Shown here piece by piece: positions 15,969 through 61,146 of a stretch of 64,000 bases of DNA. The notes under the pieces were generated by a model. The model did no database searches and had not been told where the DNA came from. It saw only the letters and a program-made list of their open reading frames with translations. The DNA is taken from assembly GCA_028293725.1 (NCBI GenBank), contig JAQGOE010000019.1:14649-78648 (forward strand). Reading direction: 5' to 3'. Origin of the DNA: Gammaproteobacteria bacterium. GTDB lineage: Bacteria; Pseudomonadota; Gammaproteobacteria; Steroidobacterales; Steroidobacteraceae. The translations under genes were made by a program, and so were the position numbers. The first letter of the stretch is position 1, and each line of letters opens with the position of its first letter.

Positions 15969-18647
15969 TTAGAACTCCCGCCAGTCGGTATCGGCGCCGT
16001 TGCCGGTCGCACGGGCGACCGCTTGGCGCGCGGGTGACAGCGCCACATCCGCTACCGCCGTGGCGGCACCGGACTTGCCCGCTTTGCCCGCCCAGGGGCG
16101 AGGGCCCCCCCGACGGTCCGCACGTACAGACGTGTCCGCGCGGGATTTCGCTGTCGCCGCACTGGCGCGGACGGCAGCGTTGTTGCTTGTTGAATTGAGG
16201 GCGGCCTCGGCGATCCGGTAGCGCGCCAGCATCTCGTTGAGTCCGCGCACCTGCTCGGCCATGGCCTGGGAAGCTGCGGTCGCTTCTTCGACGAGGGCGG
16301 CGTTCTGCTGAGTCAGCTCGTCCATCTGCATGACGGCACGGTTGACCTGCTCGATGCCCGAAGACTGCTCGCGTGAGGCGGCGGCGATTTCGGCGACGAT
16401 GTCGGAGACCTTCTTCACCGAGGCCACGATCTTCTCGAGGGTCTGACCGGACTGGGTGACGAGCACCGAGCCGTCCTCGACCTTCTTGACCGAGTCCTGG
16501 ATGAGCTCTTTGATCTCTTTTGCTGCCGTGGCCGAGCGGCCCGCGAGGCTGCGGACCTCGCTGGCGACGACCGCGAAGCCGCGGCCCTGCTCGCCCGCCC
16601 GGGCGGCTTCCACCGCGGCGTTCAGGGCGAGAAGGTTGGTCTGGAACGCGATGTCGTCGATGACACCGATGATGTCGGCGATCTTCTTCGACGCGTCGTT
16701 GATATCCGCCATCGCCTTGACGGCCTGGCTGACCACCGAGCCGCCTTTCTCCGCCTGGTCGCGCGCAGCCATGGCGAGCTGGTTCGCCTGGCCGGCGTTG
16801 TCGGCGTTCTGCTTGACGGTGGTCGTCATCTCCTCCATCGAGGAGGCTGTTTCCTCCAGCGACGAGGACTGCTCTTCGGTGCGCTGTGAGAGATTGGCGT
16901 TACCCGAGGAAATTTCGTCGGCGCCGCGATGCACCTCGGCAGCCACGAGCTTCACCTTCGAGACGACCTCGGCCATGTTGTCGGCGAGCTGGTTGACGCC
17001 ACGGCTCATCGCTTCGAAGAAGGCCGTTTTGCCGGAGAGGTCGATACGCTTGGTCAGGTCGCCACCCACAACGGCGGCGAGCATGTTTTGCATCTCCTTC
17101 TCGACGGCGACTTCCTGCGTGCGGTCCGTCCACTCGACGACCGTACCGATGCGTTCGCCCTTGTCGTTGCGGACCGGGTTGGCAACGGTGCGGAACGTGC
17201 AGGCGCCGAGTACGCGCTCGTGCATGTCGGAACCGGTAAGGTTGTCGAGCGCGCGGCGCATGTTGTTCGGGTCGATCGACAGCACCTCCATGCTCTGCCC
17301 ACGTAGCCGGCCCGCATCGAAATTCGGCAGTGTCTTGCGGATCTCGTGCTGATTGCGCGCGAACATCGCCTGCGCGGTGTCGTTGATATAGATGACCTGG
17401 TACTGGGCGTCCGAGAGCACCACGCTCGTGGAGACCTTGTCCAGCGCCTGGCGGATGCGTGAGTTCTCAGCCGCGAAGGCACGCTCTGTCTCGATCTGCG
17501 TGCGCAGCTTGCCCTGCATCTCATCGATTGCCTGCAGCACCTGTCCGGCCTCGTCGGTGCCACCGCGCTCGATCTGATTGTCGTACTTGCCGGCCGAGAT
17601 GTTGCCGAACACCGCAACGGCGTGGGCCAGCGGGGCGGACAGCGAACGGGTAATCAACCAGGAGAGCGCCAGCGCGAAGGCGAGGGCGAGGGCGGTGATG
17701 CCCGCTGTCAGGTTGCGCCAGGTCGTCACTTCCGAGAGGCGCTGCTGGACGGCGGCGTTCATCGCGCTGTAGCTGACGTCGGAGAGCTGTTGCAACGAAG
17801 AGGTGATCTCACGAGTCGCGCTATAAACTTCCGCGGTCGTGATCTCCATTTTCTGCGTGTCGAGAATCTTTTCCTTCACGGTGCCGTAAGCCGAATTGAA
17901 GGCGTTCCGGGCCGATTCCACCGCCGGCCGCACCTTCGCTTTGGCGTCCTCGGAGGCGCGATCGAGGTCCCGGGCCACGGAGTCGAAGTGTTCGATGAAC
18001 TCATCGTGATACAGGCCCAGGGCCATGCGGTCGTCGCCGCCGAGATAGCCCTTGATGCTGGCGCGCGTCGCGTACCAGCGGATGTTGCCCGAGGCGATCA
18101 GGGCGCTAGGCACGTTGCGCGTGGCGATCTGAATGAGAACCGCCGTTTCCGAGGACGGATCGACGTTCAGTCCCGAGCGCGCCGCGATCGTCTCACTCAA
18201 TTTGAAGATGCGGTCGATGAGCGCGTTGTGGCGTGCGACAGCCTCATCCGGCGAGAGCTTCGGACCCTCGGCCTTGAGACGCTCCCAGTCCGTCTTGATG
18301 GTCTGCCAGGATTCGGACACCTTGAACTTGGAGCCCACCTTGGCATCGCTCGAATCGACGGCCGCCACGAGCTTATCCATCTCGCTCTCGGAGGTGCTCA
18401 CCTCGTCACGCCGCGCCGCATCGCCTGTCAACAGCGCGAATAGGCGGCTGCGATGGTTGGAAGCTTCCGCGAGTACCGCGCCCACGGACTGCACGTAGCG
18501 GGCACCCTCAATCTCATCCGACGCCAGCGCCACCTGTGCGTTGGCACCACCCAGATAGAAGACTCCCAGCAGCGCAGTCGGCACGGCCATCGCCACAACG
18601 AGCAATGCCAGCTTCTGCCAGAGCTTCAAGCGATTCAGGAACTGCAT
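15969..18647 (-). CDS. Methyl-accepting chemotaxis protein (chemoreceptor), second of tandem pair
   Basis: An 892-residue receptor from the ATG at 18647 ([20 protein letters not shown]). GAAGG lies just upstream; an earlier in-frame start at 18692 would overlap the preceding gene. Layout: transmembrane segment (about 10-30), long periplasmic helical sensor region (35-305), second transmembrane segment (about 310-335), HAMP, a PAS-like module ([20 protein letters not shown]), a second HAMP-like region, and the signalling domain with the hairpin-tip sequence [21 protein letters not shown] long Ala/Ser-rich tail ends in DWREF, a CheR/CheB-tethering type pentapeptide. The ligand is unknown. Neighbouring cheW, cheA, cheR, cheD and cheB form its pathway. 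Confidence 0.93.
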
Positions 18648-18676
18648 GACCTTCAATCCTTGTTGTACCGACCTGA

Positions 18677-21406
18677 TCAGAATTCCTGCCACTCGCTGCT
18701 GTCCTTGCCGGCTTCGGCACGGACGGGCACGCGGGGGGCGGAGGCAACAGCCGCTTCAGGTCGGGGCGCGGCTGGCGCTGGTTTACGATTCGCCTGATTA
18801 ACCCAGGGACGAGTGGCTTTGCGGCGCTCGGCGCGCGAAGTTGCGCCGGATGTCGCTAGCTTCTTTTCGGCTGAGGCGTCTTTTACTGGAGCGGTGTCGC
18901 TCGTGACGGCCGAGCTGTGGACGGTAGCGTAGGCCGTACCGTTATTTCCCGTCGGGACACCGGTGAAATCGTAACGAGCCATCATCTCGTTGAGGCCGCC
19001 GGCTTCTGTGGTCATTGCCTGGGAAGCGGCGGTCGCCTGCTCGACGAGCGCGGCGTTCTGTTGTGTCAGCTCGTCCATCTGCATGACAGCGCGGCCGACC
19101 TGCTCGATGCCGAGCGATTGCTCGCGCGAGGCGGCAGCGATCTCGGCGACGATGTCGGACACCTTCTTCACGGAGACGACGATCTGCTCCAGCGTCTGAC
19201 CGGACTGGGTCACGAGCACCGAGCCGTCGGACACCTTCTTGACGCTGTCCTGGATGAGGTCTTTGATCTCTTTCGCGGCGGTCGCCGAGCGGCCGGCCAG
19301 ATTCCTGACTTCCGACGCCACGACCGCGAAGCCGCGGCCCTGTTCTCCGGCGCGCGCTGCTTCGACCGCCGCATTGAGCGCGAGGAGATTCGTCTGGAAG
19401 GCGATCTCGTCAATCACACTGATGATGTCCGCGATCTTGCGGGCCGAGTCGTTGATACCCGACATCGCCTGCACGGCTTTGCCGACCACCATGCCACCTT
19501 GCTCGGCCTGGTCACGCGCGGCGAGGGCGAGTTGATTCGCCTGGCCGGCGTTGTCGGCATTTTGTTTGACCGTCGTGGTCATCTCTTCCATTGACGATGC
19601 GGTCTCTTCGAGCGAGGCCGCCTGTTCTTCCGTGCGCAGCGACAGGTTGGAGTTGCCCGCGGAGATTTCCTGCGCACCGCGATGAATTTCCACCGCCGCG
19701 CTCTTCACCATCGACACGGTCGCGGTGATGTTGTCGGCGAGCTGGTTGATGCCGCGGCTCATGGCCTCGAAGAAGCCGTTCTTGCCGGCCAGGTCGATGC
19801 GCTTGCCGAGGTTGCCGCCGTTGACAGCGGCGAGCATGGTCTGCAGCTCCTTCTCGACACGCACTTCCTGCGTGCGCTGTGACCATTCCATCACGGTGCC
19901 GAGCCGCTCGCCCCGGTCGCCAATGACGGGATTCGTCACGGTGCGGAAGGTGAATTCACCCAGCACCCGCTCCTGTACGTCGGCGCCCGCCAGGTTGTCG
20001 AGCAGGCGGCGCTGGCTCGTCGGGTCGGCTGATAGGGACTCGAGGCCGGAGCCACGTAGGCGGGTCGCGTCGAAGTTAGGCAGCGAGGTGCGGATTTCCT
20101 GCGCATTGCGTGTGAAGCTCGCCTGCGCAATCTCGTTCACATAGATGATCTGGTGCTTCTCGTCCGCGAGCACCACACTCGTCGAAGCTTTGTCGAGCGC
20201 CTGCCGGATGCGGGTATTCTCCGCCGCAACCGAGCGCTCGGTCTCGATCTGGGTACGCAGCTTGCCCTGCATCTCATCGAGGGCTCGCAACACCTGGCCG
20301 GCCTCATCGTTGGAGCTGGTGTCGATCTTGCTGTCGTAGTGGCCCGAGGAGATGCTGCCGAATACCGTTATGGCCTGTGTGAGCGGCTGCGTCAGGGAGC
20401 GGGTAACCATCCACGCGAGCGCCAGTGCGAACGCCAGCATGAGGAAACTGATTCCGGCGGAGATATTCCGATGTAAGGCCAGGTCCGTCACACGTTGCTG
20501 CAGCGACTTGACAGTTGCCTCGAAGCTCGCGGCGGAGAGTTTCTTGACAGCGCGATTCGTGGCGACCCCGGCGTCGTATAACTCTGCTCCGGTCACTGAC
20601 ATGGTGGCCGCAGCGATGAGTTTCGCCTGTACGACCGAGTCGTATTCAGCGGCTGTTGACACCGCGGCATCGAAGGAAGGGCGTAGCTCGGCCTGCGCGT
20701 CCGCCGGCAACTGTTCCAGGGCGGTCCGGGCTTGCTCGATTTCAGCATGGAAACGGTCGCGATAGATCTGGATCCCCATGCGATCGTCGCCGCCCAGGTA
20801 GCCCTTGGAGGCCGCCTTCACGGCAAAACGGCGCATGTTGCCCGCGTAAATCAACGCCTTCGGTGTGTCATCGGACGCCATGTGAATGAGCGCGTGCGTT
20901 TTCACCTCTGGATCGAGCAAAGTCTTCGAGCGCCCGCCCACGAGTTGCATCAACTGCTGCAGGTGATCGGTGAGAGCCACGTTCGCGGCGTCGCTCTCCG
21001 CTACGGACTGTGTGAGGGCCTTGGACTTCAGTGCCGCCCATTCGGCCTTTACGCTCTGCCAGGCATCCGACACGCCAAGCTGTTTGCCGAGGTCGGCGTT
21101 CAGCGTGTCCATGGCGGAAATCTGCTTCTCAACCTCTTCCTGCTGCGCGACGACGTCGCCGCGGCGCGCGGCGTCACCGCTCAGAAAGACGAACGCGCGG
21201 CTGCGGTGAGTGAGGATCTCTCCCTCCACGGCACTCAAACCCTGCAGATAGCGCGCGCCTTCCAGCTCATCACGGGCTTGGCTCACCTGCGTTTCGGCGA
21301 GACGCAGGTAGAAGAAGCCAACCAGCGCGGCAGGAATGGCCATCGCGAGGACGAGCCATCCGAGTTTCTGCCAGAGCTTCAGGCGGTTGAGGACTTGAGT
21401 GATCAT
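18677..21406 (-). CDS. Methyl-accepting chemotaxis protein (chemoreceptor), first of tandem pair
   Basis: A 909-residue receptor with the same architecture as the product of 15969-18647. It has an N-terminal transmembrane segment ([16 protein letters not shown] region), a periplasmic helical domain, a second transmembrane segment, HAMP, a PAS-like module ([20 protein letters not shown]) and the signalling domain with [20 protein letters not shown]. The two proteins align from end to end, most closely in the cytoplasmic half, so they arose by tandem duplication. The C-terminus EWQEF is again a xWxxF CheR-docking pentapeptide on a flexible tail. The periplasmic halves differ more, suggesting different ligands. 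It lies 16 bp downstream of cheW. Confidence 0.94.
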
Positions 21407-22023: not shown

Positions 22024-24387
22024 TCATGCGGCAGCCCCCACTGGGGGTTCCCTCGCTGGCCGCTCGGTCGCCCGCATCGACGCCGCCTGGATGATTCCCG
22101 CCACGTCGAGAATCAGGGCGACGGAGCCGTCGCCGAGGATGGTGGCTCCTGAAACACCCTCGACATGTCCGTAGTTGGCTTCCAGAGACTTGATCACGAC
22201 CTGCTGCTGGCCGAGCAGGTCATCCACGAACAGTCCGACGCGGCGGCCGTCGCCCTCGGCGATCACGACCAGGCCCTCGTGCAGCGCACGGGCGCGCGGC
22301 TCGATACCGAACAGCTCATGGAGGCGGATGATGGGGAGGTAGTCGCCGCGGAACGAGAAGACTTCATTGTGTCCGGACAGGCGGCTGATGCTCGTCTCCT
22401 TGAGTCGCATCGACTCGACGATGGAGATGAGCGGAATGATGTAGGTCTCGCTGCCGACCGCCACTGACTGGCCATCGACGATGGCGAGTGTGAGGGGCAG
22501 GGTGATAATGAAGCGCGAGCCTTTGCCACGCTCGCTGCGAAGCTCGATCTTGCCGCCGAGCTCCTTCACGTTCCGGCGCACGACGTCCATACCGACGCCA
22601 CGTCCCGAGAGATCGGTGGTCTTCTCGGCGGTGGAGAAGCCCGGGAGGAAGATGAGGTCGTGAATCTGGTCATCGGTGAGCACGTCGTTCTGGCCGATGA
22701 GGCCGCGCTGGCGCGCTTTCGCGAGAATGCGCTCTTTGTCGAGTCCGCCACCGTCGTCACTGACCTCGACGGCGATATTGCCGCCGCGATGGCAGGCATC
22801 GAGGTGCACCGTGCCGGCCGCGCCCTTGCCCGCGGCGATCCGCACGTCAGGCATTTCAATGCCGTGGTCGATGCTGTTTCGGACGAGATGTACGAGCGGG
22901 TCGCCGATTTTTTCGAGGACGGTTTTATCGAGCTCCGTCTGTTCCCCGGTGAGTTTGAGGTCGATCTGCTTCCCGAGGCGCTGCGCGATGTCGCGCACCA
23001 TGCGGGGGAAGCGGCTGAATACGAAGCTGATGGGCAACATGCGCACGCGCATGACGCTTTCCTGCAGCTCGCGGGTGTTGCGTTCGAGCTGGGCGAGGCC
23101 GGCGCGCAGCTTCTCGGCGTTTGCGCCTTCGAACGCGGCGCCGAGCTGGCTGAGCATCGCCTGGGTGATCACGAGCTCGCCGACGGTGTTCATGAGCTCG
23201 TCGATTTTCTCGACACTGACGCGGATCGAGCCGGAGTCGCCGACTGCGCCGATGGAAGCATCGGGCTTGGCTGACGGGACGGCTGTCAGGGTGGGCGCGG
23301 TGGCGGTCGGGGCAGCCGCTGCGGCAGCGGGCGCAGCGGGTTCGTGTTTGGGTTCTTCGGCGGCCGGCGACCGAGCGGCGACCGAGCGGCCAGCGAGGGA
23401 ACCCCCAGCGGGGGCTAGCGACTGAGCGGTCAGCGAAGGAACCCCCAGCGGGGGCGAGGGAATCCCCAGCGGGGGTGTGTTGCCGGACAGGATGGCGTCC
23501 GCGACGATGTTGCTGGCGGTCACCTCGGTTGGCGCACTGGCGCTCGCGGCAGCGACGACAGGCGCTGCGGCCGTTTCGGCACCGACGCGACGCAACTCGA
23601 GATCGCAGTCGCCTTCGGCCCACTCAAACACCTGTTTGATGGCGTCTTCGCTGACGTCGCCGGCGAGTTCGAGTTTCCAGGCGAGATAGCAGCTTTGCGC
23701 GTCGAGAGCGGCGAAGGCGGGCAGGGCGCTCGTGTCGACTTCTACCTTCAGCTCACCCAGTTCGGCGAGCTCGCGCATCATGCGCAACGGATCATTGCCG
23801 CGGGCGAACAGCTCACGGTACGGGCGGAAGGAGATTTCCCAGTGTTTGGCTACCGCCGCGACGACGGGCGCCGGCGCGACCGAGCGGCCAGCGAGGGAAT
23901 CCCCAGCGGGGGCGACCGATACCGGCGCGGGCGACGGAGCCGGCGGAGGAGCAACCGCCACCGGCGCCACCACAGCAGGCTTCGCCGGCGCGTTATTTTT
24001 CTGCGCGATTATGAGCTCGACATCGAATTGGATGTCGGAGACCCGCTGCATGTTGAGCGGCTGTTTGGATTGCGTCGAGCGCAACATCGCGCGCATGACG
24101 TCCACGGTCTTCAGCAGCAGGTCCGAGATATCGAGTGAGACCTGCATGCCGCCGCTGCGCAGCTCATCGAGCAGCGTCTCGCAGCTGTGCGTGAAGGAGG
24201 CGATGTCGGAGAAACCGAAGGTCGCGCTGCCACCCTTGATGGAATGCGCGACGCGGAAGATGGTGTTGATCAGCTCGGGCTCGGGCGCGCCGATGTCGAG
24301 CTTGAGGAGGGCGGCCTCCATCGAGTCGAGCGCCTCGAAGCTCTCTTCGAAGAACGCGTCGTGAAACTGTGTCAGGTCTATCGTCAT
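22024..24387 (-). CDS. cheA: CheA, chemotaxis sensor histidine kinase
   Basis: A 787-residue kinase from the ATG at 24387, coupled to the STAS gene stop (ATGA). Domains: HPt with the phosphorylated His48 in FRVAHSIKGGSATFGF (1-130); an intermediate domain around WEISFRPYRELFARGNDPLR (about 190-290); dimerisation helices (about 400-470); the ATPase with HLVRNSIDHGIEMPD and GRGVGMDVVRRNVKELGG (to about 640); and a CheW-like domain. The linkers on both sides of the intermediate domain, and the extreme C-terminus, carry copies of a GC-rich palindromic repeat (23876-23913, 23368-23475, 22034-22072). CheA phosphorylates CheY and CheB. An upstream in-frame extension to 24471 is a shadow of the STAS gene. 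Confidence 0.96.
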   Translation of the reverse strand: MTIDLTQFHDAFFEESFEALDSMEAALLKLDIGAPEPELINTIFRVAHSIKGGSATFGFSDIASFTHSCETLLDELRSGGMQVSLDISDLLLKTVDVMRAMLRSTQSKQPLNMQRVSDIQFDVELIIAQKNNAPAKPAVVAPVAVAPPPAPSPAPVSVAPAGDSLAGRSVAPAPVVAAVAKHWEISFRPYRELFARGNDPLRMMRELAELGELKVEVDTSALPAFAALDAQSCYLAWKLELAGDVSEDAIKQVFEWAEGDCDLELRRVGAETAAAPVVAAASASAPTEVTASNIVADAILSGNTPPLGIPSPPLGVPSLTAQSLAPAGGSLAGRSVAARSPAAEEPKHEPAAPAAAAAAPTATAPTLTAVPSAKPDASIGAVGDSGSIRVSVEKIDELMNTVGELVITQAMLSQLGAAFEGANAEKLRAGLAQLERNTRELQESVMRVRMLPISFVFSRFPRMVRDIAQRLGKQIDLKLTGEQTELDKTVLEKIGDPLVHLVRNSIDHGIEMPDVRIAAGKGAAGTVHLDACHRGGNIAVEVSDDGGGLDKERILAKARQRGLIGQNDVLTDDQIHDLIFLPGFSTAEKTTDLSGRGVGMDVVRRNVKELGGKIELRSERGKGSRFIITLPLTLAIVDGQSVAVGSETYIIPLISIVESMRLKETSISRLSGHNEVFSFRGDYLPIIRLHELFGIEPRARALHEGLVVIAEGDGRRVGLFVDDLLGQQQVVIKSLEANYGHVEGVSGATILGDGSVALILDVAGIIQAASMRATERPAREPPVGAAA
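22034..22072 (+). repeat. Intragenic palindromic repeat copy at the 3' end of cheA
   Basis: A 39-bp copy of the repeat also found at 23368-23475, 23876-23913, 31116-31163 and 31202-31288, but inverted relative to those copies. It contains a near-palindromic CCCCCACTGGGGG arm. CheA reads it as ATERPAREPPVGA, just before its stop codon. Confidence 0.8.
23368..23475 (-). repeat. Cluster of three intragenic repeat units in the second linker of cheA
   Basis: Two complete units and one partial unit, each with the CCCCAGCGGGG box and most with the GACCGAGCGG/GACTGAGCGGTC box. In CheA they encode about residues 305-340, between the intermediate domain and the dimerisation helices. Adjacent units are translated in different phases, giving PPLGVPSLTAQS from one and PAGGSLAGRSVA from the next. 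Confidence 0.85.
23876..23913 (-). repeat. Intragenic palindromic repeat copy in the first linker of cheA
   Basis: A single 38-bp unit with the CCCCAGCGGGG box, translated as part of APAGDSLAGRSVAP at about residues 159-171 of CheA, between the HPt domain and the intermediate domain. Confidence 0.82.
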
Positions 24388-24758
24388 GGGGCGGTCGTCG
24401 GAAGTTTGAGGAGGGAGCTCAGACCGAGGAGCTTCGCCGCCGCTGCCAGGGAGGGCGCTGCACCGCGCCACTGCACCTGCCGCCCGAGCGACTCGCGCTC
24501 ACGAACGAATGTTGCGATGACCTGCAGGCCGGCCGTATCGATGCGTTGTACGGAGCCGATGTCGAGAGTGACTACACCAGTGTCGTCGAGCAGCTTCGCC
24601 AGTCCGGACTTCAGCGTGCTGGCATCCGCGACCGTGCATTCGGCGGCAACGGCAAACGCACCGCTTGCCGCGTTATGTTCGGTTTCCGCGCCAGGCGTTT
24701 TGGCGGCGCGCCCACGGCGGGTGGTGCGAGTCGCGGCCCCTTGCTTGCGTTTGTTCAT
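24384..24758 (-). CDS. STAS-domain protein coupled to cheA
   Basis: A 124-residue protein. Residues 1-30 are basic and disordered (MNKRKQGAATRTTRRGRAAK). Residues 35-120 form a STAS domain with VTLDIGSVQRIDTAGLQVIA, where the Asp-Thr-Ala-Gly stretch corresponds to the DTAG/DSSG phosphorylation-site loop (Thr in place of Ser). STAS proteins act as anti-sigma antagonists or adaptors. Its stop overlaps the cheA start (24384-24387, ATGA), so the two are made together. A role in CheA signalling is an inference from coupling. No partner kinase of the RsbW type was seen in the window. Confidence 0.85.
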   Translation of the reverse strand: MNKRKQGAATRTTRRGRAAKTPGAETEHNAASGAFAVAAECTVADASTLKSGLAKLLDDTGVVTLDIGSVQRIDTAGLQVIATFVRERESLGRQVQWRGAAPSLAAAAKLLGLSSLLKLPTTAP

Positions 24759-24879
24759 GGCAGTGGATTATGAAAAAGGTCGCTGCTACGGCTGCACACT
24801 CAGTATCGGCTCCCGTGGCTCGCCCCTTGAGGGTGCGTTGCGGAAAGTAGACGTAGTTCCGCTCGCCGTTACGGCTGGC

Positions 24880-25296
24880 TCAAATACGTACCGGGCCCGA
24901 AGATCCGTGCAGGCGCCGCACCAACTCGGCCTCGGCCAGCGACAAGCCGCAGCCGGCCATGAGCTCTTCGCGCGATGCGCCGCCCTTGGCGAGGCGGATG
25001 GCCATCTGGTAGCTGGCCGAGGGACCGTTGCCCGTGGGGGGCAGCGCTGGGCGCTCGAGCCGGTCTCCCAGCTGGGAAATCGTGGTCTTGGTCGCGTCGA
25101 CCCGGGCTTCCAGGGACGCGAGCCGTTGCAGCACGGTGTTTGTTTGGGACAGCACCTGGGCCGTTTGCACCTGTATGGCGCGCCGCCAGGAGGTGAAGGC
25201 GAAGGCGGCGACGACGAAGGAAAACAACAGAAAAACGGCGCGCCCGGCGACGAGCAGGAATTCAACGGAGGTCAATTCGGCGGCTGGCAGACTCAT
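24880..25296 (-). CDS. DUF2802-family membrane-anchored protein
   Basis: A 138-residue protein with one N-terminal transmembrane segment (VEFLLVAGRAVFLLFSFVVA), a coiled-coil stretch (TNTVLQRLASLEARVDATKT) and a C-terminal DUF2802 motif (YQMAIRLAKGGASREELMAG, then CGLSLAEAELVRRLHG). DUF2802 proteins sit next to cheW or motCD in many polar-flagellate gammaproteobacteria; their function is unknown. Here it lies between motD and the STAS-cheA-cheW group. The C-terminal motif resembles a small helix-turn-helix. Confidence 0.85.
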   Translation of the reverse strand: MSLPAAELTSVEFLLVAGRAVFLLFSFVVAAFAFTSWRRAIQVQTAQVLSQTNTVLQRLASLEARVDATKTTISQLGDRLERPALPPTGNGPSASYQMAIRLAKGGASREELMAGCGLSLAEAELVRRLHGSSGPVRI

Positions 25297-25386
25297 GGGC
25301 GCTTAGCTCCTGTGAACACGTTCACACTTGCCGCGCAGGCTCGAGTCAGATGTCGGAAAACCGGCGCGGTCAGGCAGTTGTGTTAT

Positions 25387-26667
25387 TCAGGGTGCAGGAA
25401 CCATGCCATTGCCGGCGACGTGCGCGCCGGATGTCGACAGCGTCACATTTGATGTTGCCCGCGCCGCCGTGGCCTCAGTAGGCGCGGCCCGTGGGGGCGC
25501 CACACGACCGGGGAGTTGGGCCGGCTCGCCGGGGGCGGCCAATGTTGCTTGAGTGGCGGGGGCCGGGAAGGCCGTAGCCGGGGTGCCACCGTCTGATGCC
25601 GGCTGCCGGGCCGTGACGGTACCGGCGGACGTCGCGGCACCGGCAGGCGTTGCAGTGCCGGCGGACGCCGCGGGGTCTGGCAGGAACGGCATGGCGTTAG
25701 CTGCCGCGCCGGGTTGCAGTGCTGTTGCGTTGTTTGTGGCTGCCGCTGGCGGGGCGCCCGTCGAGGAGGGGATCGGGCTCGGGCCGCCCGGTTGGTCGGC
25801 TGGGGACTTCTGCCGTTGCAACTCCGTTGACAGGATCACGACTACCACGCGCCGGTTGGCGTTGCGTCCCGGCTCGGTGTCATTGGGCTGCACGGGGCGC
25901 GTGTCGCCGTAGCCGATTACGGCGAGCCGCTCGGGGCCGACGCCCTGTGCCTGGAGCACCCGTACTACGCTGCCGGCGCGGGCGGCTGAAAGCTCCCAGT
26001 TCGAATAAAACGCTACCGTACTGATTGGCTTGTTGTCCGTGTGTCCCTCCACCCGGATCGGGTTCGGGAATGGGGCCAGTGCGCCGCCCAGACGTTGGAT
26101 GACGTCCACCGCATAGGGAGCGAGGTGCGCGCTACCGCTGGGGTAGAGGATGTCCGTCTTGATCTCGACCTCGATCCAGAACTCCGTGCGACGCACGACG
26201 ACGAGGTTCTGCTTGACGAGGTCATCCATGGCGCGAGTGACTTCGTCGGCCAGGCGCTGGAGTGCGGCCGCGGCGGCGGCGCCTGCCCCGGACAGGTGGT
26301 TTGCTATCGGCGAGGCGCCTGCCTGTTGGTTGCCGCCCTGGACAGGGACTGGCGCGAGTGACGAGCGCTGCTGTCCCTGCAGTGTGGACTGGACGATGGA
26401 GGCATCGATCTCCGCGCCCGAGCCATTGGGCTTTTCGCCCACCTGGATCGGGTCCATGGTGCGCGGGGCGCCCCGGAACGCGGCAAACAGCGAATCCGAC
26501 AGCACCCGGTACTTGCCGGCGTTGACGGAGGAAATCGCGTACATGACCACGAAAAACGCGAGCAGCAACGTAACGAGATCGCCATAGGGGATGGCCCACG
26601 CTTCGTGGTTGGTATGCTCGTCGTGGCGCCGGATACGCCGCGTCATGACAGGCTTCTTGCGACTCAT
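25387..26667 (-). CDS. motD: MotD, flagellar stator B-type subunit
   Basis: From the ATG at 26667 (MSRKKPVMTRRIRRHDEHTN) the product is 426 residues. A plug/transmembrane segment contains the channel aspartate (AIPYGDLVTLLLAFFVVMYA). An OmpA-like peptidoglycan-binding domain follows (NPIRVEGHTDNKPIS, then LSAARAGSVVRVLQAQGV and VIGYGDTRPVQPN). After it, an unusually long low-complexity tail of about 140 residues, rich in Ala, Pro, Thr and Gly, extends to the C-terminus. MotD anchors the MotC/MotD stator to the cell wall. The start lies 8 bp after the motC stop; the frame's extension to 26739 overlaps motC and is unlikely to be used. Confidence 0.94.
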   Translation of the reverse strand: MSRKKPVMTRRIRRHDEHTNHEAWAIPYGDLVTLLLAFFVVMYAISSVNAGKYRVLSDSLFAAFRGAPRTMDPIQVGEKPNGSGAEIDASIVQSTLQGQQRSSLAPVPVQGGNQQAGASPIANHLSGAGAAAAAALQRLADEVTRAMDDLVKQNLVVVRRTEFWIEVEIKTDILYPSGSAHLAPYAVDVIQRLGGALAPFPNPIRVEGHTDNKPISTVAFYSNWELSAARAGSVVRVLQAQGVGPERLAVIGYGDTRPVQPNDTEPGRNANRRVVVVILSTELQRQKSPADQPGGPSPIPSSTGAPPAAATNNATALQPGAAANAMPFLPDPAASAGTATPAGAATSAGTVTARQPASDGGTPATAFPAPATQATLAAPGEPAQLPGRVAPPRAAPTEATAARATSNVTLSTSGAHVAGNGMVPAP

Positions 26668-26675
26668 GACACGCG

Positions 26676-27416
26676 CTAGTGCAGGTATCCCTGCAGCTTC
26701 GCTTCGATAGAGCGCGGATTCTCGCCCTGCGCTATACATAACATACCGTCGATCACCATCTCCCGGAATTGTGTCTGCCGGTGAATGATGGCTTTGAGTT
26801 TGGAGGCGACGGGCAGAAAGAACAGGTTCGCGAAGCCGATGCCATAGACCGTGGCGGTGAACGCCGCGGCGATGCCATGCCCGAGCTTGCTCGGATCAGC
26901 CAGGTTCTGCAGTACTGCCATGAGACCCAGCACCGCTCCGATGATGCCCAGGGTCGGTGAATATATGCCCATTCCTTCGAACACCTTCGCCGCACTCGTG
27001 TCGGCGTGCTCCCGCATGTTGAGTTCAACGTACATCACGGCGCTGATGCTATCTGGCTCGCTGCCGTCGACGACCAGTTGCAGCGCCTTCTTCACGAAAT
27101 CGTCCGGCTCTTTGGCGATCGTGGGCTCGAGCCCGAGCAGCCCCTGTTTGCGCGCCGTGTTGCTCCACTCGACGATCTTGGTGATGAGCAGGTTGCCGTT
27201 GCTGGCCGGGGGACGCATGATCCACGGGAAAATCTTGAGCGCGCGCCGCATGACCGGCAGCGGCGTTTGAATGAAGATGGCTGCGATGGTCCCCACGACC
27301 ACGATCATGAAAGCGGCCGACGAGACGAGCGCCATGAGGCCGGCGCCTTTCAACACGGCGCCGACCAGGATGGCGTTCAGGGCGAGCACCAGGCCGACGA
27401 TGCTCAGAATGTCCAC
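26676..27416 (-). CDS. motC: MotC, flagellar stator A-type subunit
   Basis: A 246-residue MotA/TolQ-type protein with four transmembrane segments (for example LALNAILVGAVLKGAGLMAL and ILGAVLGLMAVLQNLADP). It has the cytoplasmic loop used for rotor contact and TVYGIGFANLFFLPVASKLK, a MotA-family signature. Together with MotD it forms a proton-driven stator. motC and motD, rather than motA and motB, accompany che genes in Pseudomonas-like clusters. No motAB pair was seen in this window. Confidence 0.95.
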   Translation of the reverse strand: MDILSIVGLVLALNAILVGAVLKGAGLMALVSSAAFMIVVVGTIAAIFIQTPLPVMRRALKIFPWIMRPPASNGNLLITKIVEWSNTARKQGLLGLEPTIAKEPDDFVKKALQLVVDGSEPDSISAVMYVELNMREHADTSAAKVFEGMGIYSPTLGIIGAVLGLMAVLQNLADPSKLGHGIAAAFTATVYGIGFANLFFLPVASKLKAIIHRQTQFREMVIDGMLCIAQGENPRSIEAKLQGYLH

Positions 27417-27425
27417 GAAGGCCCC

Positions 27426-28184
27426 TTACATTCCGAGACCCGACAGCAGTGCGTCCACATCTGTCTGGCCCGAGGCGATTTCGCCCTTGGTGACACCAGG
27501 CACGGCCGGGCCGTGGCCGGCGCTCTCACCCATGGAGGCGTGCTCGACCACGTCGCCCGAGAGTCGCGAGAGATCGGTAAGAGCGATTTCGAGCTCCTCG
27601 ACGAGCTTCATCACGCTGCGGATGATCTGGCCGGTGAGGTCCTGATAGCCCTGGGCAATCAGCACGTCCGCGAGATTCCGGCGGATGAGCTCGGAGTCGG
27701 CGCGCGCGGCGGGGAGAAATGCCTCGACGGCGCGCACGACCGGCACGTAGGCGTCGATCGAGCGTGCGACTCCCTCGAATCCTTGCACACCCGTCGATTG
27801 CGCGCGGTACGCGTTGATCATGTCGATGAGCGTGCCGGCCGCCTTCGAAGTCCGCTCCGCGACCGGTCCCGACTGCTCGACCAGGTCGAGAGTGCGATGG
27901 GCGGCTTCGTCCGTCATGCTGATGACGTGGTTGAGGCGCGCACGCGCATCCGGAATTTCGTTCTCGGCGATATCCGTCAGCTTCGACTCGATGCTGAAGC
28001 GTTCGAGCGCCTTCTGCAGGTCGCCGGTGAGCTTGCGCAGCTCGCCAAACATTCCCGGCTCGCGCATGTGCACGATGTGGTCGACCGCCGCGAAGAAAGC
28101 CTTCTCGTCCTCGGTGCGCAAGGCGTCGGTGAGCGCCTCGACGCAGGCGCTGTATTCAAGTTTCAGTACCGCAAAGCTCGACAT
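27426..28184 (-). CDS. cheZ: CheZ, CheY-phosphate phosphatase
   Basis: The 252-residue helical protein has the catalytic motif AQGYQDLTGQIIRSVMKLVE with Asp182 and Gln186 (D-x-x-x-Q). Its C-terminal peptide, VDALLSGLGM, matches the CheY-binding tail of CheZ. It dephosphorylates the motor-controlling CheY encoded 7 bp upstream and sits between cheY and motC as in Pseudomonas. A second protein with a similar DxxxQ motif is encoded at 14443. Confidence 0.96.
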   Translation of the reverse strand: MSSFAVLKLEYSACVEALTDALRTEDEKAFFAAVDHIVHMREPGMFGELRKLTGDLQKALERFSIESKLTDIAENEIPDARARLNHVISMTDEAAHRTLDLVEQSGPVAERTSKAAGTLIDMINAYRAQSTGVQGFEGVARSIDAYVPVVRAVEAFLPAARADSELIRRNLADVLIAQGYQDLTGQIIRSVMKLVEELEIALTDLSRLSGDVVEHASMGESAGHGPAVPGVTKGEIASGQTDVDALLSGLGM

Positions 28185-28191
28185 GTTGACC

Positions 28192-28575
28192 TCACTTACC
28201 CGGGCCCAGGATCTTGTCGAGCTTTTCTTTCAGCGTTTCCGCCGTGAAGGGCTTGATGACATAGCCGTTGACTCCGGCTTGGGCGGCTTCGATGATCTGC
28301 TCGCGCTTGGCTTCCGCCGTCAGCATGAGGACCGGCATCTTGGCGAGCTTGGCATCGGCGCGCACCGCCTTGATCAGGTCGAGGCCGGGCATGCCCGGCA
28401 TGTTCCAATCCGTGATCAGGAAGTCGAAGCTGCCCGCCTGCAGCATGGGCAGCGCGGTCTTGCCGTCGTCCGCCTCATCGACGTTGGGATAGCCGAGGTC
28501 GTGCAGCAGATTTTTGATAATACGCCGCATGGTCGAGAAGTCATCGACCACCAGGAATTTCAGATCTTTGCTCAC
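28192..28575 (-). CDS. cheY: CheY, flagellar-motor response regulator
   Basis: A stand-alone receiver with [20 protein letters not shown], the phospho-acceptor Asp in [20 protein letters not shown], Thr in [14 protein letters not shown] and Lys in [15 protein letters not shown], closely matching CheY of E. coli and Pseudomonas. I place the start at the GTG at 28575 (127 residues). The AGGAG at about 28586 is 6-7 nt from it, whereas the ATG at 28581 would be only 1 nt away. The frame's extension to 28677 overlaps fliA. Phospho-CheY binds FliM/FliN to reverse rotation. It follows fliA by 17 bp and precedes cheZ. Confidence 0.94.
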
Positions 28576-28592
28576 AACCATTCTCCTGCCAC

Positions 28593-29321
28593 TTACGCCT
28601 GCGCTTCTACGCGTCCATCGCGCCAATCCGCCAACCGCGCCTTCAGTCTCACGAGCGCCTGGCCATGTAACTGGCAAGCGCGCGATTCCGTAACTTTCAA
28701 CACCGCCCCGATCTCTTTCAGGTTCAGCCCGTCGGTGTAGTACAACGACATGACCAACCTCTCCCGCTCCGGCAGGCTGTCGATCGCCTGCGCGAGCGCC
28801 AATCTGAACCGGTCGTCCGAGGTCTCGCGGAATGGATCCGCGGAACCCGCCGCCGTCGCCGCCGTCATATCGTCGAGCGTCGCGAGCCGGCAGCTCGCCG
28901 CGTCCTGGACGATCGAGTGATACTCACTCAACGGCACACCCATTCGTTCCGCGATCTCGGCGTCCCGCGCATCGCGTCCCGTCTGGCGTTCGATCTCCTG
29001 CACTACCGCCGCCACCGCCCGTGCCTTGCGATGGACCGACCGTGGCGCCCAATCCAACTTCCTCAAGGCATCGATCATCGCCCCGCGGATCCGGATTCCC
29101 GCGTACGTCTCGAAGCTCGCCCCGCGGTTCGCCGCGTAGTGCGAAGCCGCCTCGAGCAACCCCAGCATCCCCGCCTGGATCAGGTCATCGACCTCCACCG
29201 ACGGCGGCAACCTTCCCGCGAGGTGGTAGGCGATGCGCTTCACCAGCTCGGCGTGCTGCATGATCAGCGCGTCCGCCTCGCTCGCTCCCCGATGCGCCCC
29301 GTATGCGCTCGCTGCATTCAT
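28593..29321 (-). CDS. fliA: FliA, sigma28 factor for late flagellar genes
   Basis: A 242-residue sigma factor. Region 2 contains [40 protein letters not shown] and [20 protein letters not shown]. Region 3 contains [20 protein letters not shown]. Region 4 contains [20 protein letters not shown] with the DNA-binding helix [20 protein letters not shown]. It recognises TAAA-N15-GCCGATAA type promoters, of which three good examples are in this window (7856, 8841, 50003). Two FlgM paralogs are available to inhibit it. Its ATG overlaps the flhG stop (29318-29321, ATGA). Confidence 0.97.
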
Positions 29322-30199
29322 GTCACGGTTTCCAGCCGGGGCGCGCTCCTTCGCACTAACCGTTCCACGAAGAACTCAATATTTCCCCGTGGGCCCGCTG
29401 GCACTGGCCATGTATCGGCCCGCGCTGCCAGTTTCTTGAACGCGCGCGACGCCGGACTAGACGGATATGCATCACAAACCGGACGTTGCTCTCTAACGGA
29501 GCGACGCAGGTACTCGTCTTCAGGAATCTCGCCTGCGAATTCAAGCACTACATCGAGGAAGCGTGCTGTGACGCGCTCGAAACGGTGGAAAAGCTCGGCG
29601 CCGGCGCCTGGAATACGCATCTGGTTGGCCAGCACGCGGAATCGATTCACGCCGTGATTGCGACTCAGCACCTTGACGAGTGCATACGCGTCAGTTAGCG
29701 ACGCGGGCTCATCGCAGATCACGACTACAACGTGTTGGCACGCTTGTGAGAACTGCAGCACACTATGGGCGATGCCGGCGGCCGTATCGACGATCAGGAC
29801 ATCAACTCGCGCGGCGAGGGTACTGAACGCCTGCACCAGGCCCAGGTGCTCGGCGGCGCTCATATTCACCATGTCAGCCGCTCCTGAAGCGGCCGGCACG
29901 ACCAGGAAGCCCTGGGGCGCGGTTACGAGAATTTCATCCAACGTCCGCTCGCCGGACATGACGTGCGCCAGGGTGTAGCGTGGCGAAAGGCCCAGAAACA
30001 CATCGGCGTTGGCGAGTCCCAGGTCACCGTCGAGCAGTACTACACGCTTGCCGCTTGCCGCGAGGGCCGTGGCAAGGTTGACGGAAACACTGGTTTTGCC
30101 AACACCGCCTTTCCCGCCGGTGACGGCGATGACCTGTACGGGCTGCGCCAGTCCGCTCAAGTCGGTGCTGCTGATGAGGTTGAGATCAGATGATGGCAT
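29318..30199 (-). CDS. flhG: FlhG (FleN), MinD-like ATPase controlling flagellar number
   Basis: From the ATG at 30199 the product is 293 residues. It has the deviant Walker A of MinD/ParA proteins (VIAVTGGKGGVGKTSVSVNL), the VLLDGDLGLANADVFLGLSP segment and VDVLIVDTAAGIAHSVLQFS. FlhG limits flagellar number, acting on FlhF and, in Pseudomonas, on FleQ. The start overlaps the flhF 3' end by 14 bp. A longer frame to 30325 lies wholly inside flhF and lacks domain sequence. The C-terminal 40 residues after YLRRSVREQRPV are typical of the family. Confidence 0.95.
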   Translation of the reverse strand: MPSSDLNLISSTDLSGLAQPVQVIAVTGGKGGVGKTSVSVNLATALAASGKRVVLLDGDLGLANADVFLGLSPRYTLAHVMSGERTLDEILVTAPQGFLVVPAASGAADMVNMSAAEHLGLVQAFSTLAARVDVLIVDTAAGIAHSVLQFSQACQHVVVVICDEPASLTDAYALVKVLSRNHGVNRFRVLANQMRIPGAGAELFHRFERVTARFLDVVLEFAGEIPEDEYLRRSVREQRPVCDAYPSSPASRAFKKLAARADTWPVPAGPRGNIEFFVERLVRRSAPRLETVT

Positions 30200-31760
30200 G
30201 TGCGGCTTTTCCAAATCGACGGCGCAGAAGATCTTCATCGGCCGCCGCACCGCTCGTCTTCGCGAGCCGCACGGCCGTCGACACCAATTCCAGGGCGCGC
30301 GCGGGACGCAGGTCCTCCGGCACACGTTGTCCTTCGCTCACGTACGAAACCGGCAGCCGTGCTTTGATCAGCACGGACAAGGCACCCCCGAGGCTGGCGG
30401 CCTCGTCGACCTTGGTGAGCACACAGCAGGCGGGATTGGCCGACGCGTAGCGCTTCACGGTTTCCTCCACGGCGCCGGCCTGCGTGCTGGCCGCGAGCAC
30501 CAGTGCGGTTTCCATCTGCGAAGCGCAGTTGGACAACACACCCAGGCGGTGCGCGAGCTGGCCGTCGCGCAGGCTCGAGCCCGGGGTGTCGATTAGAATC
30601 ATCCGATGTCGATCGCCGAGACGCCCCAGCAGTGTGGGCAGACTTTCGAAATTCTCCGGCGTATAGACGGGGACACCCAGCAGCTGCCCGAGCGATTGAA
30701 TTTGGTCTTGAGCCCCGATGCGCACAGTGTCGGAGCCTACTAGTGCGATGTCCCGGGGTCCGTGACGCAAGACCCAGCGTACGGCGAGCTTTGCGAGAGT
30801 TGTGGTCTTTCCGACGCCGGTGGAACCGATAAAAGCCACCCGGCCGCCGTTTTCGAGCCAGCGATCGCCGGTGACGAGGAGATATTGCGAGAGGCCGGCG
30901 ATTGCGAAGCGTCGTGCGAAGCCTAATTCCACCTTCTCCGGGAGTTGCTTGAGGATGTACTCCGAGAGCTCCTGCGAGATGCCGATTTCAGTGAGCTCCC
31001 GCAGGATCTCCACGTGAACCGGCGCGCGGCGTGTCATGTCATTCCAGGCGAGTTGCGCGAGCTGGGTTTCCAGCATCCGGCGCATCATCTTCATCTCAGT
31101 GCCCATGGCGTCGCTCGACTGAGCGGCGACCGAGCGGTCAGCGAGGGAATCCCCAGCGGGGACGGCCAGATCCTCGCTCGGCGGCGCCGTGATGTTGAGT
31201 ACGACCGAGCGGCTAGCGACTGAGCGGTCAGCGACTGAGCGGTCAGCGAAGGAACCCCCAGCGGGGGCGAAGGAACCCCCAGCGGGGGTCGGCTCCCGGC
31301 GCGACACGGCCTCAGCGGCCTTCACCGGGGCGCTTTCGTGGTGCGTCGCAGCAGCGACTGCGGGGGCGGGCGCTGATATCGCAGTCGCCTCCTGACCGAG
31401 AATGTGAGCGAACGGTCGCGAGTCGGAGGCCTGCGCAGCCGGGAAATAGTGTGACGCTGCCGCGTGGGAGTAGGAAGGCGCGGGAGCCGGAGCGGGCGTC
31501 GGAGCAGGCGCGGTGCGCGAGGATGCCAGTGCGCGCGAGGCAGCCGCCGGTTGTGTTGGCAGTGGCGTGGCGGTCAGAGTCTCCGCCGGAGCGTTCATCG
31601 CGCCTTGCAAACTCGTGGCGTCGAAGTCAATGGCGGCGGTGACCTCCACTCCCTCCGGAATGCGTCGCGAGGACAGGATTACTGCGTCATCTCCGAGTTG
31701 CTCTCGGATCGAACGCATTGCCTGACGCATGTCGGGCGCGATGTGTCGGACTATCTTCAT
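30186..31760 (-). CDS. flhF: FlhF, SRP-type GTPase positioning the flagellum
   Basis: A 524-residue protein. The N-terminal B domain starts MKIVRHIAPDMRQAMRSIRE, then QLGDDAVILSSRRIPEGVEV. A long Ala/Pro/Ser linker spans about residues 75-215. The NG GTPase core carries Walker A VAFIGSTGVGKTTTLAKLAV, ALVGSDTVRIGAQDQIQSLG, the ILIDTPGS motif and CCVLTKVDEAASLGG. The linker contains two clusters of the palindromic repeat also present in cheA (31116-31163 and 31202-31288), which makes it longer than in many FlhF proteins. FlhF marks the cell pole for assembly. It lies 12 bp after flhA and overlaps flhG. Confidence 0.95.
   Translation of the reverse strand: MKIVRHIAPDMRQAMRSIREQLGDDAVILSSRRIPEGVEVTAAIDFDATSLQGAMNAPAETLTATPLPTQPAAASRALASSRTAPAPTPAPAPAPSYSHAAASHYFPAAQASDSRPFAHILGQEATAISAPAPAVAAATHHESAPVKAAEAVSRREPTPAGGSFAPAGGSFADRSVADRSVASRSVVLNITAPPSEDLAVPAGDSLADRSVAAQSSDAMGTEMKMMRRMLETQLAQLAWNDMTRRAPVHVEILRELTEIGISQELSEYILKQLPEKVELGFARRFAIAGLSQYLLVTGDRWLENGGRVAFIGSTGVGKTTTLAKLAVRWVLRHGPRDIALVGSDTVRIGAQDQIQSLGQLLGVPVYTPENFESLPTLLGRLGDRHRMILIDTPGSSLRDGQLAHRLGVLSNCASQMETALVLAASTQAGAVEETVKRYASANPACCVLTKVDEAASLGGALSVLIKARLPVSYVSEGQRVPEDLRPARALELVSTAVRLAKTSGAAADEDLLRRRFGKAAHAII
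31116..31163 (-). repeat. Intragenic palindromic repeat in the FlhF linker, downstream cluster
   Basis: One full unit with GACCGAGCGGTC (a 5-bp inverted repeat) followed by CCCCAGCGGGG, plus a partial GACTGAGCGGC box. It is translated in flhF as VPAGDSLADRSVAAQSS (about residues 200-215). Confidence 0.83.
31202..31288 (-). repeat. Intragenic palindromic repeat in the FlhF linker, upstream cluster
   Basis: Two CCCCAGCGGGG boxes and three GA(C/T)(C/T)GAGCGG(C/T) boxes in tandem. They encode TPAGGSFAPAGGSFADRSVA and a short run of DRSVA repeats at about residues 158-187 of FlhF. Confidence 0.85.
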
Positions 31761-51008: not shown

Positions 51009-52532
51009 TCAGGTCGTGGGGCGCGGTGTGCGCGCGAAGGCCAGGATGCGCTCGGCGAGCGTGGAGTATTCGCCGCTGAAGTGATGGCCCTTGCCGACTT
51101 CGGCGAGTGTGATTTTCGTGTGCTCGGGACTTTTGGGCAGTCCGGGGCAGATCGAGTCCGATTCGCCTTCGCCGTAGACGCACAGCACCGGCACGCCACC
51201 GATGGCCGCGACCTCGGGTTGGGTAGGCGGTCCGCCGTCATCGGAACCGACCCAGTCGGCGATCCGAATCTCGAAGGAGGCGTTCGAGTCGACGCCCAAC
51301 AGGCTGACAGTTGCAACACGCTGGCGCAGATCGGGCGGTAGCCGGTTCACTACGAACGGCAACACGTCCGCCCCAAAAGAGTAACCAACGAGCAGCACGC
51401 GCTGTTTGTTCCACGCCGCCAGGTAATGGCTCATGACGCGGGCGACGTCTTTCGCGGTTTCGGCCGGAGTGCGCTCGGTCCAGAAGTATTTCAGCGAGTT
51501 CAGGCCCACGGTGGGCACGCCGCTCGCGGCCAACTGTGTGGCCAACTCCTGGTCGAGCCCCGCCCAGCCGCCGTCACCCGTGAGGAGGACCGCCATCTCA
51601 TCCGAGCTGGAATGGCCTTCCGCCGCCGGGACCTCGTTCACAGGCAGGTCGCTGATTTCCTGCGGACGCGCGGCGGGCGCTTCGGTATGAGCGCTGATGC
51701 TGGCGTAGGCCTCGCGAAACTGCGGCATCCAGTTGCGCTCGACCGAGAAGCCGTGGCCCACGAGTGGCAGCTTGACGACCTGGGCGCCGTTGGTCCGTGC
51801 GGCGAATAGGTCCACGGGCGCGGGGCCGCACACCTCGTCTTTCTGGCCCTGGAAGGCGATCCAGGGCTGCTTGAGGTTTTTGGCAGGCTCAAAAACGAGG
51901 TCGGTCTTTTTGCCGGGTGTGTAGTGCAAGCCGGCGCCCGGGCAGAGTGCGGCGCCGGAGAAATCCTGGTCGGGGCAGAAGCCGAGGCTCAGAGCGCCGG
52001 CGAAGGTGCCCGGTGGGGACTGCACGAGGGCTGCGTAGACCACCGTGGCGCCGGAGGAGTAACCGACGAGAACGGGCACGTGATACACGAACATGCCGAT
52101 CTCTTTCTGGATCTGGTGACTGAGATTCTCGAAGTCTCCCGCGATCAGTTGGCAGGGTGCGTTCGGACGCTGCGCGGCTTTGCCGAGCGCACCGAGGTAT
52201 TGGCGGATGTCCACGCCAATGACGACCGCGCCCATGTCGACGAGTGCCTTCGCCATACTGATGACGCCCAGATTCCAGCCGCCGTCACCCGAGAGGAAGA
52301 TGGCGACACTCTTGGGCGTGCCCTCGGGAATGTAGACCGTGACGGTGCCGAAGCGGCCGGCGGGGAGATGGGTTTCGCCTTCGGTGGGGTCGACGGGGGC
52401 CTTGGTCGCGGTGGGCTTGTTGGCTTGCGCGGAGGCGGTGCTGGCCTGGGGAGCTTCTGCGGTGGCTGCACCGGCCGTTGCCGTGACGGCCAGCAACAGC
52501 GCTACGACCCCTGCAAGGCATCTGCGACTCAT
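51009..52532 (-). CDS. acvB: AcvB/VirJ-family hydrolase with two virulence-protein domains, likely lysyl-phosphatidylglycerol hydrolase
   Basis: From the ATG at 52532, which overlaps the mprF stop (52529-52532, ATGA), the product is 507 residues. A signal peptide (LAGVVALLLAVTATAGAATA) targets it to the periplasm. Two related alpha/beta-hydrolase halves follow, each with a GDGGW motif (AIFLSGDGGWNLGVISMAKA and LLTGDGGWAGLDQELATQLA) and a nucleophile elbow (VLVGYSSGATVVYA and LLVGYSFGADVLPF). AcvB of Agrobacterium hydrolyses lysyl-phosphatidylglycerol made by its MprF homolog LpiA. Coupling to mprF here suggests the same pair. A long upstream extension to 53042 overlaps mprF and is rejected. 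Confidence 0.86.
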   Translation of the reverse strand: MSRRCLAGVVALLLAVTATAGAATAEAPQASTASAQANKPTATKAPVDPTEGETHLPAGRFGTVTVYIPEGTPKSVAIFLSGDGGWNLGVISMAKALVDMGAVVIGVDIRQYLGALGKAAQRPNAPCQLIAGDFENLSHQIQKEIGMFVYHVPVLVGYSSGATVVYAALVQSPPGTFAGALSLGFCPDQDFSGAALCPGAGLHYTPGKKTDLVFEPAKNLKQPWIAFQGQKDEVCGPAPVDLFAARTNGAQVVKLPLVGHGFSVERNWMPQFREAYASISAHTEAPAARPQEISDLPVNEVPAAEGHSSSDEMAVLLTGDGGWAGLDQELATQLAASGVPTVGLNSLKYFWTERTPAETAKDVARVMSHYLAAWNKQRVLLVGYSFGADVLPFVVNRLPPDLRQRVATVSLLGVDSNASFEIRIADWVGSDDGGPPTQPEVAAIGGVPVLCVYGEGESDSICPGLPKSPEHTKITLAEVGKGHHFSGEYSTLAERILAFARTPRPTT

Positions 52533-59357: not shown

Positions 59358-59363
59358 GGGAAC

Positions 59364-59385: not shown

Positions 59386-59405
59386 AACTACCAGGCACCC
59401 GCCGC

Positions 59406-61119: not shown

Positions 61120-61146
61120 GCGGCGCGCGCCCCTGGAGGCCGGATC

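Follow-up and report, generated by a model that had tools for sequence, protein, structure and literature searches.

A 36-bp coding repeat, apparently mobile, nested within cheA and dispersed among the genes of a Steroidobacteraceae-like lineage

Introduction

How can one GC-rich DNA repeat recur inside two conserved genes, in several reading phases and in both orientations, while both genes stay open? This question is raised by a 64,000-nucleotide stretch of contig JAQGOE010000019.1 (positions 14,649 to 78,648; gammaproteobacterial assembly GCA_028293725.1), hereafter the window, whose flagellar and chemotaxis cluster includes cheA and flhF, both on the minus strand. A sequence-only reading of the window had proposed that a palindromic, mobile or amplifying element occupies five loci in these two genes and survives only in disordered linkers at domain boundaries. 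Here we describe the repeat as a unit of 36 bp, CCCCCGCTGGGGRTTCCYTCGCTGRCCGCTCRGTCG when written in the reading direction of the majority of copies, and interpret it, with a probability of roughly 0.88, as a mobile, non-autonomous DNA element of an uncultured Steroidobacteraceae-like lineage, in which it spreads through 36-bp insertions, a large number of which lie in genes. Gene-dwelling selfish DNA is best known from Rickettsia. In the present case, empty, single, double and triple states of one site are found in near-identical relatives, which gives direct access to the length, orientation, frame and landing site of the insertions and to what the proteins tolerate.

Results

Nested 36-bp insertions in CheA

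The cheA gene (22024..24387, minus strand; 787 aa) encodes an Hpt domain (residues 9-99), H-kinase_dim (387-448), HATPase_c (497-633) and CheW (641-768). Its second linker carries an array of 108 bp, or 36 inserted residues (23368..23475, minus strand). The sequence-only reading had taken this array as one locus; the unit is indeed present there, but as three nested units rather than one. When 36-bp units are removed singly, the linker becomes SGNTPPLGIPSPPLGVPSLTAQSLAARSPAAEE, then SGNTPPLGIPSLAARSPAAEE, and finally SGNTPAAEE. Each of these states exists among the relatives, for which the best-scoring 120 CheA and 120 FlhF of larger sets were used: SGNTPPLGIPSPPLGVPSLTAQSLAARSPAAEE, with 24 inserted residues, is the linker of P0122 residue for residue; SGNTPPLGIPSLAARSPAAEE, with 12, is that of P0123 and P0126; and SGNTPAAEE, with none, is that of P0125, P0129, P0130 and P0132. 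P0124 shows the 24-residue state with S replacing the first P, and, among the 120 CheA searched, the three-unit state occurs in the window's CheA only. Over the 522 core residues, the CheA proteins of P0001, P0122-P0126 and P0131 share 97.9-99.2% identity, and three relatives with 24, 12 and 0 inserted residues have cores 98.5% identical to that of the window. Because stepwise 36-bp removal reproduces the linkers of relatives, the linker-2 array is the product of three insertions, two of them nested within the first.

The outer unit begins at 23455..23475 (minus strand) and its remainder lies at 23415-23418 and 23368-23378; the parts rejoin to 36 bp, which alone encode PPLGIPSLAARS, as in P0123 and P0126. 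The first nested unit, of type 2, occupies 23419..23454 (minus strand; frame f3, PPLGVPSLTAQS) and the second 23379..23414 (minus strand; frame f2, PAGGSLAGRSVA), where the frame labels f1-f3 and r1-r3 and the subtype labels type 1 and type 2 are introduced in this analysis. Nesting at two points of the outer unit explains both the 40-base spacing and the phase change of the neighbouring copies, with no frame-shifting indel. Linker 1 carries one 36-bp unit (23877..23912, minus strand; frame f2, PAGDSLAGRSVA), whose removal yields APVSVAPAPVVAAVA, the sequence of P0131, and the same linker in P0126 holds a nested form of 24 residues. In both linkers the states differ in steps of exactly 12 codons. 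Self-nesting and this 36-bp quantum go beyond the sequence-only reading, which had suggested comparing close relatives at these sites; there the insert proves to be absent or variable.

A third site lies at the cheA 3' end, where the unit is inverted relative to the gene (22035..22070, plus strand; frame r1, TERPAREPPVGA). Its removal restores AASMRAAA*, the empty form of relatives. Among the 97 CheA C-termini readable by one expression, which left 23 of the 120 unmatched, 89 are empty and 8 are filled with 12, 17 or 24 residues; a simpler test of the last residues finds the empty form in 105 of 120. The cheA 3' end is also readable in 16 of 29 GTDB loci fetched with FlhF, and is empty in all 16. 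At the DNA level, the alignment of locus L001 with the window across this site contains substitutions, with the 36 bp as its sole gap, and TGAACCATC is common to both 3' of the gene. No target-site duplication was seen at the three CheA sites, as 36-bp removal gives the sequence of relatives with nothing duplicated. A 2-bp GC target duplication suggested at two sites fails at others, and a search by eye for a landing-site consensus yielded none that held.

Anatomy and reading of the unit

The unit consists of two modules. Module A (21 bp) contains the box CCCC-GCT-GGGG and is read as PAGDSLA in frame f2, and module B (15 bp) contains GRCCG-CT-CRGTC and gives GRSVA. The boxes from which the sequence-only reading had built the unit are thus visible, but exact GACCGAGCGGTC is present in only one of the six full copies, the remaining ones having GACCGAGCGGCC or GACTGAGCGGTC. 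Type-1 units are recognised by the diagnostic letters GATTCCCTC ... GGCCGCTCGGTC and type-2 units by GGTTCCTTC ... GACCGCTCAGTC, with intermediates also present. Type-1 units are stop-free in all six frames; TGA interrupts type-2 units in f1 and r3, as well as the unit at 31127..31162 in f1. Since both modules are divisible by 3 and type-1 units are stop-free, insertions as well as later gains or losses of modules leave the host gene open. GTAG, CGTC and their complements are absent from both strands of type-1 and type-2 units, and no terminal inverted repeats were seen in the unit.

Three reading phases occur in the window, PAGxSLA (f2), PPLGxPS (f3) and ATERPAREPPVG (r1, at the CheA C-terminus, in opposite orientation), in agreement with the phases and the orientation proposed earlier. 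Regardless of frame, the six full copies share 32-36 of 36 bases, and the r1 copy matches one f2 copy at 35 of 36.

A scan of the 64 kb with the pattern CAGCGARGGAAYCCCCAGCGGGG at up to 3 mismatches (23 bases) gave 8 matches, compared with a mean of 0.00 in 100 shuffles, and all 8 fall in genes, the window being one contig. A nhmmer model made from the six full copies recovers these by construction (E 2e-11 to 4e-10), along with four partial neighbours (E 9e-5 to 0.27); elsewhere in the window it returned two rows with E above 4, which are noise, and no copy outside genes. Two stray fragments, a 10-mer at 12007 and 23 nt with an 83% match at 35616, can both be explained by chance. Within the window the unit is confined to cheA and flhF, whose reading frames are both open, and it is present at all five loci of the sequence-only reading.

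Arrays and replacement in FlhF

The flhF gene (30186..31760, minus strand; 524 aa) encodes an SRP54 GTPase domain (308-495) and carries inserts at residues ~159-187 and ~201-212. The former correspond to an 87-bp array (31202..31288, minus strand) with modules of 21+21+15+15+15 bp (PAGGSFA PAGGSFA DRSVA DRSVA SRSVV), in which unit removal points to a nested type-2 unit at 31232..31267 (minus strand). The latter, ahead of the SRP54-type domain, is a unit at 31127..31162 (minus strand; frame f2, PAGDSLADRSVA). The locus had earlier been drawn as 31116-31163; its outer 11 nt (~31116-31126) encode AAQS, and because relatives that lack the element there share these residues, this margin is probably host sequence. 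At residues ~200-211 the element replaces 12 residues instead of being added to them: between the same flanks, the window's FlhF reads VPAGDSLADRSV and P0003 reads AQTLAELPAMPT. Single inserts occur to either side of this stretch in other relatives, and a simple account is therefore that two copies recombined.

Among 96 distinct A(i)B(j) array strings, 64 have equal module numbers, against a mean of 45 and a maximum of 60 in 2000 shuffles, and in 13 of 16 informative 2+2 arrays the module subtypes pair as nesting predicts; both counts treat related arrays as separate and lend supporting weight only. Slippage as the origin of all repeated modules was dropped as a candidate, since 36-bp removal reproduced the sequences of relatives.

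Dispersal among unrelated proteins

We searched for the element peptides in frames f2, f3 and r1 among proteins of ~130-415 residues, a range that excludes most CheA and FlhF, with E up to 10. This returned 76 proteins, many non-significant by E-value alone, although a motif check found that all 76 hold a copy at one mismatch or less. After masking of the element, these proteins, together with CheA and FlhF, form 37 clusters, and each of the 35 others carries the motif. Judged by source names or Pfam accessions, these clusters include DnaQ, RraA, PanE, CheW, cytochrome c, GspH, HprK and ImuA-like proteins, along with a fatty acid desaturase and a sigma factor. In 316 proteins the copies are distributed as f2 190, r1 41, f3 22, r3 9, r2 5 and f1 3, and the same proteins reversed contain none; among the 35 clusters the frames are f2 25, r1 9, f3 5, r3 4, f1 3 and r2 1. 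Frames f1, r2 and r3 are under-counted because the query held only f2, f3 and r1 peptides. Four frames occur within the relatives of CheA and FlhF, where the motif is present in 28 of 120 and 53 of 120 proteins, respectively, and two more occur elsewhere. The further copies for which the sequence-only reading had proposed to look thus exist in numerous additional proteins and cover all frames and both orientations.

Some inserts interrupt conserved domains. Two segments of DnaQ P0295 (2-105 and 143-265) align to E. coli DnaQ and are separated by 37 residues, compared with 8 in the E. coli protein, and the inserts of P0295 and P0286 apparently lie at different points of one loop. In RraA P0289 and PanE P0265 the insert is spanned by the Pfam domain match; the PanE insert is absent from the relative P0268, which carries a nested C-terminal one. 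CheW P0261 has one aligned segment at 34-107 and a second, weak one at 168-212, and its Pfam match does not span the insert. In PDB alignments one half is weak for RraA (10.0 bits) and CheW (5.6 bits), whereas the interrupted domain is well supported for DnaQ. Inserts are thus also located within conserved domains, namely those of the DnaQ exonuclease, RraA, PanE and, on weaker evidence, CheW. The proposal of a mobile or amplifying element is thus supported by variable sites and dispersal, but its restriction to disordered linkers and domain boundaries does not hold. AlphaFold models gave a mean pLDDT (predicted local distance difference test score) of 44 for FlhF (26 rows) and of 36 for DnaQ (3 rows) and were not used; because of these low values, we infer rather than observe that inserts are disordered or exposed.

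Two further groups deserve mention. An ImuA/SulA-like cluster (14 proteins, among P0241-P0311) has inserts at two positions, one N-terminal and one internal, in frames f2, r1, r2 and r3, and seems to be an insertion hot spot. P0303 (GspH-like, 233 aa) holds a multi-frame array between RRGF and GGFTLIE, in the prepilin leader region.

Carriers and related genomes

Carriers with an organism name in the source are metagenome-assembled genomes of Steroidobacteraceae (P0124, P0253). The exact pattern had no match in genome_contigs or in viral_contigs, and blastn against plasmid and phage sets did not match the unit. Ten related genomes gave 17 matches at up to 3 mismatches, compared with 10 in a backwards control, one at 2 mismatches and the others at 3. 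Across the family (217 genomes, up to 2 mismatches), 12 genomes have one match each, all at 2 mismatches and three of the same sequence, a mild excess over the 4 matches of the control; because no genome has more than one, we read these matches as background. The order (396 genomes, up to 1 mismatch, GAGGG form only) gave no match, and a fuzzy scan of the 29 GTDB loci gave a single match with 5 mismatches. Since the unit was not found in these genome searches, the carrying lineage lies outside the genomes examined and is known here from contigs beyond those collections. Y1_Tnp genes, which encode Y1 tyrosine transposases, are present in 10 of 40 genomes sampled from a related family; such an enzyme may be the mover, although that family is without the unit. 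The four element peptides and two DNA strings searched for are absent from the open-access papers examined, and literature searches brought up no description of the element (subscription papers were not covered).

Discussion

Near-identical relatives differ in the filled or empty state of the same sites, and the unit occurs in both orientations, in six frames and nested within itself. Because of the nested 36-bp states, the empty C-termini and the 35 further clusters in six frames, the repeat is a dispersed coding element, apparently with recent activity, and not a linker peptide. We envision that the unit is moved by a trans-acting enzyme, possibly via hairpins of single-stranded DNA. A length divisible by 3 and the lack of stops would make the unit tolerable, and selection would remove insertions harmful to folding, such that survivors remain in linkers, termini and loops. 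Older copies may then serve as preferred or safe landing sites, and recombination between two copies could delete the intervening host residues. It is slightly less than an even bet that the repeat is a gene-adapted family in its own right, outside both the GTAG/CGTC classes and the Rickettsiales, with a 12-codon unit of 5- and 7-codon modules, stop-free in type 1, that inserts with no duplication and uses older copies as landing pads. If so, each safe protein site would be a growing nursery, with intermediate states persisting in sister populations.

Could the repeats instead have grown in place, with no mobile element, as GC-rich modules of 15 and 21 bp slipped during replication within Ala-Pro linkers? 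Module numbers vary from A1B1 to A5B4 and some arrays are tandem, as such local expansion would predict. It does not, however, yield 36-bp steps nested in a unit or the single inverted copy at the CheA terminus, and it leaves unexplained why this DNA recurs in 35 further clusters, in all six frames and either orientation. We therefore consider slippage very improbable as the whole explanation, although it is likely as a secondary process. Even harder to sustain is selection for a protein motif, either a binding peptide or a flexible linker of Pro, Ala, Gly and Ser, that convergence or gene conversion would have spread. The f2 reading, a flexible hydrophilic peptide, does account for 190 of 270 copies, and the window copies all lie in linkers or at a terminus; but the f2 share is inflated by a query limited to f2, f3 and r1, the window copies keep their 32-36 of 36 bases over three frames, the relatives of CheA and FlhF use four frames with two more elsewhere, and the same sites are empty in relatives.

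A third alternative is compatible with a mobile element and only names its mover: the unit would be a repetitive extragenic palindromic (REP) sequence of a new family with many intragenic members, moved by a REP-associated tyrosine transposase (RAYT, a Y1 enzyme). PMC3733652 describes REPs as 20-40 bp long, with stem-loop boxes, occurring in clusters and with some units inside open reading frames (ORFs). The size, the GC-rich paired boxes, the clusters and the units within ORFs are all shared by the GTAG/CGTC-tagged REPs of that source and our element, and the Y1_Tnp genes of the related family would fit as well. In contrast, our unit is without an exact terminal GTAG or CGTC tetranucleotide, its stems measure 4-5 bp, and its arrays are one-directional or nested, whereas head-to-head dimers predominate in REPs (PMC3733652). 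The window also holds no copy outside genes and no linked transposase among the 30 ORFs scanned, and the related genomes sampled lack the unit beyond 2-mismatch matches. We regard a RAYT-moved REP as rather unlikely, yet clearly more plausible than either slippage or a selected peptide.

Several observations weigh against a mobile element. The lack of a transposase among the 30 window ORFs scanned is one, and lengths divisible by 3 could reflect survivorship. The 8 C-terminal inserts need 8 changes on the CheA tree, no fewer than the mean of 7.8 with shuffled labels; this tree, built on 102 of the 120 rows, has less than 80% support at 48 of its 88 inner branches, and the well-supported ones force only 1 change at the C-terminal site, so that the tree does not separate repeated insertion, loss and gene exchange. 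The filled states of carrying relatives are known from protein sequence only, and some of the 76 proteins are possibly wrong ORFs or have misplaced starts. Crossed pairing is better in 3 of the 16 informative arrays. Changes of 15 and 21 bp, as in the 17-residue C-termini, 32 of 96 unbalanced arrays and the 87-bp FlhF array, require slippage or deletion in addition. Finally, the dyad boxes of the unit are visible, but shuffled sequences fold as well as the single units do (z -0.01, -0.44, -0.39, +0.24, -0.57). The same holds for the CheA array folded as DNA (z -0.52, -0.62), and the 87-nt FlhF array as RNA is the sole one that stands out (z -2.33).

The likeness to Rickettsia palindromic elements (RPEs), which the sequence-only reading had raised, holds in part. 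PMC10969869 and PMC3767692 describe RPEs (Ogata 2000) as in-frame repeats of ~100-150 bp in many unrelated protein-coding genes of Rickettsia and Wolbachia, and the segments that they encode are reported to be exposed to solvent. Those of R. conorii terminate in CGTC, a class said to be without a dedicated transposase (PMC3733652). The element described here shares the in-frame insertion into unrelated protein-coding genes, with 35 clusters besides CheA and FlhF, but it is gammaproteobacterial, measures 36 bp and has no CGTC; it is also read in six frames, and its nested insertion is resolved stepwise. By analogy, its behaviour resembles that of RPEs and intragenic REPs; since GTAG and CGTC are absent and its size is unlike that of RPEs, we do not claim membership in either. 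PARCELs (palindromic amphipathic repeat coding elements; PMC2996958) are likewise coding repeats with DNA dyad symmetry that are thought to be mobilised; they encode one amphipathic motif of 25 residues, whereas our element keeps its DNA while the reading changes. Miniature inverted-repeat transposable elements (MITEs) such as ERIC and QMITE1 are, according to PMC10969869, short non-autonomous insertions able to fuse in frame. Our element is a similarly short in-frame insertion, but unlike MITEs it leaves the three CheA sites without a target-site duplication, and terminal inverted repeats were not seen in it.

The inserts amount to an experiment of nature that maps the places at which conserved enzymes, the proofreading subunit of DNA polymerase among them, tolerate added residues. 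They are also a warning that mobile DNA can cause linker-length variation in metagenome proteins.

Other features of the window

Two large ORFs (15969-18692 and 18677-21406) follow one another, the second with MCP and HAMP domains. Stretches of 300 nt lying 2753 bases apart in this pair are 84% identical, which suggests that one chemoreceptor gene was duplicated in tandem, with domains scanned in the second ORF only. At 51009-55273, an ORF of the lysyl-phosphatidylglycerol synthase type is overlapped by one for a VirJ-domain hydrolase. Further on, 58101-63925 holds a row of SHMT, NrdR, RibD, lumazine-binding and RibBA-type genes, in which a cytochrome P460 gene separates the lumazine-binding from the RibBA-type gene.

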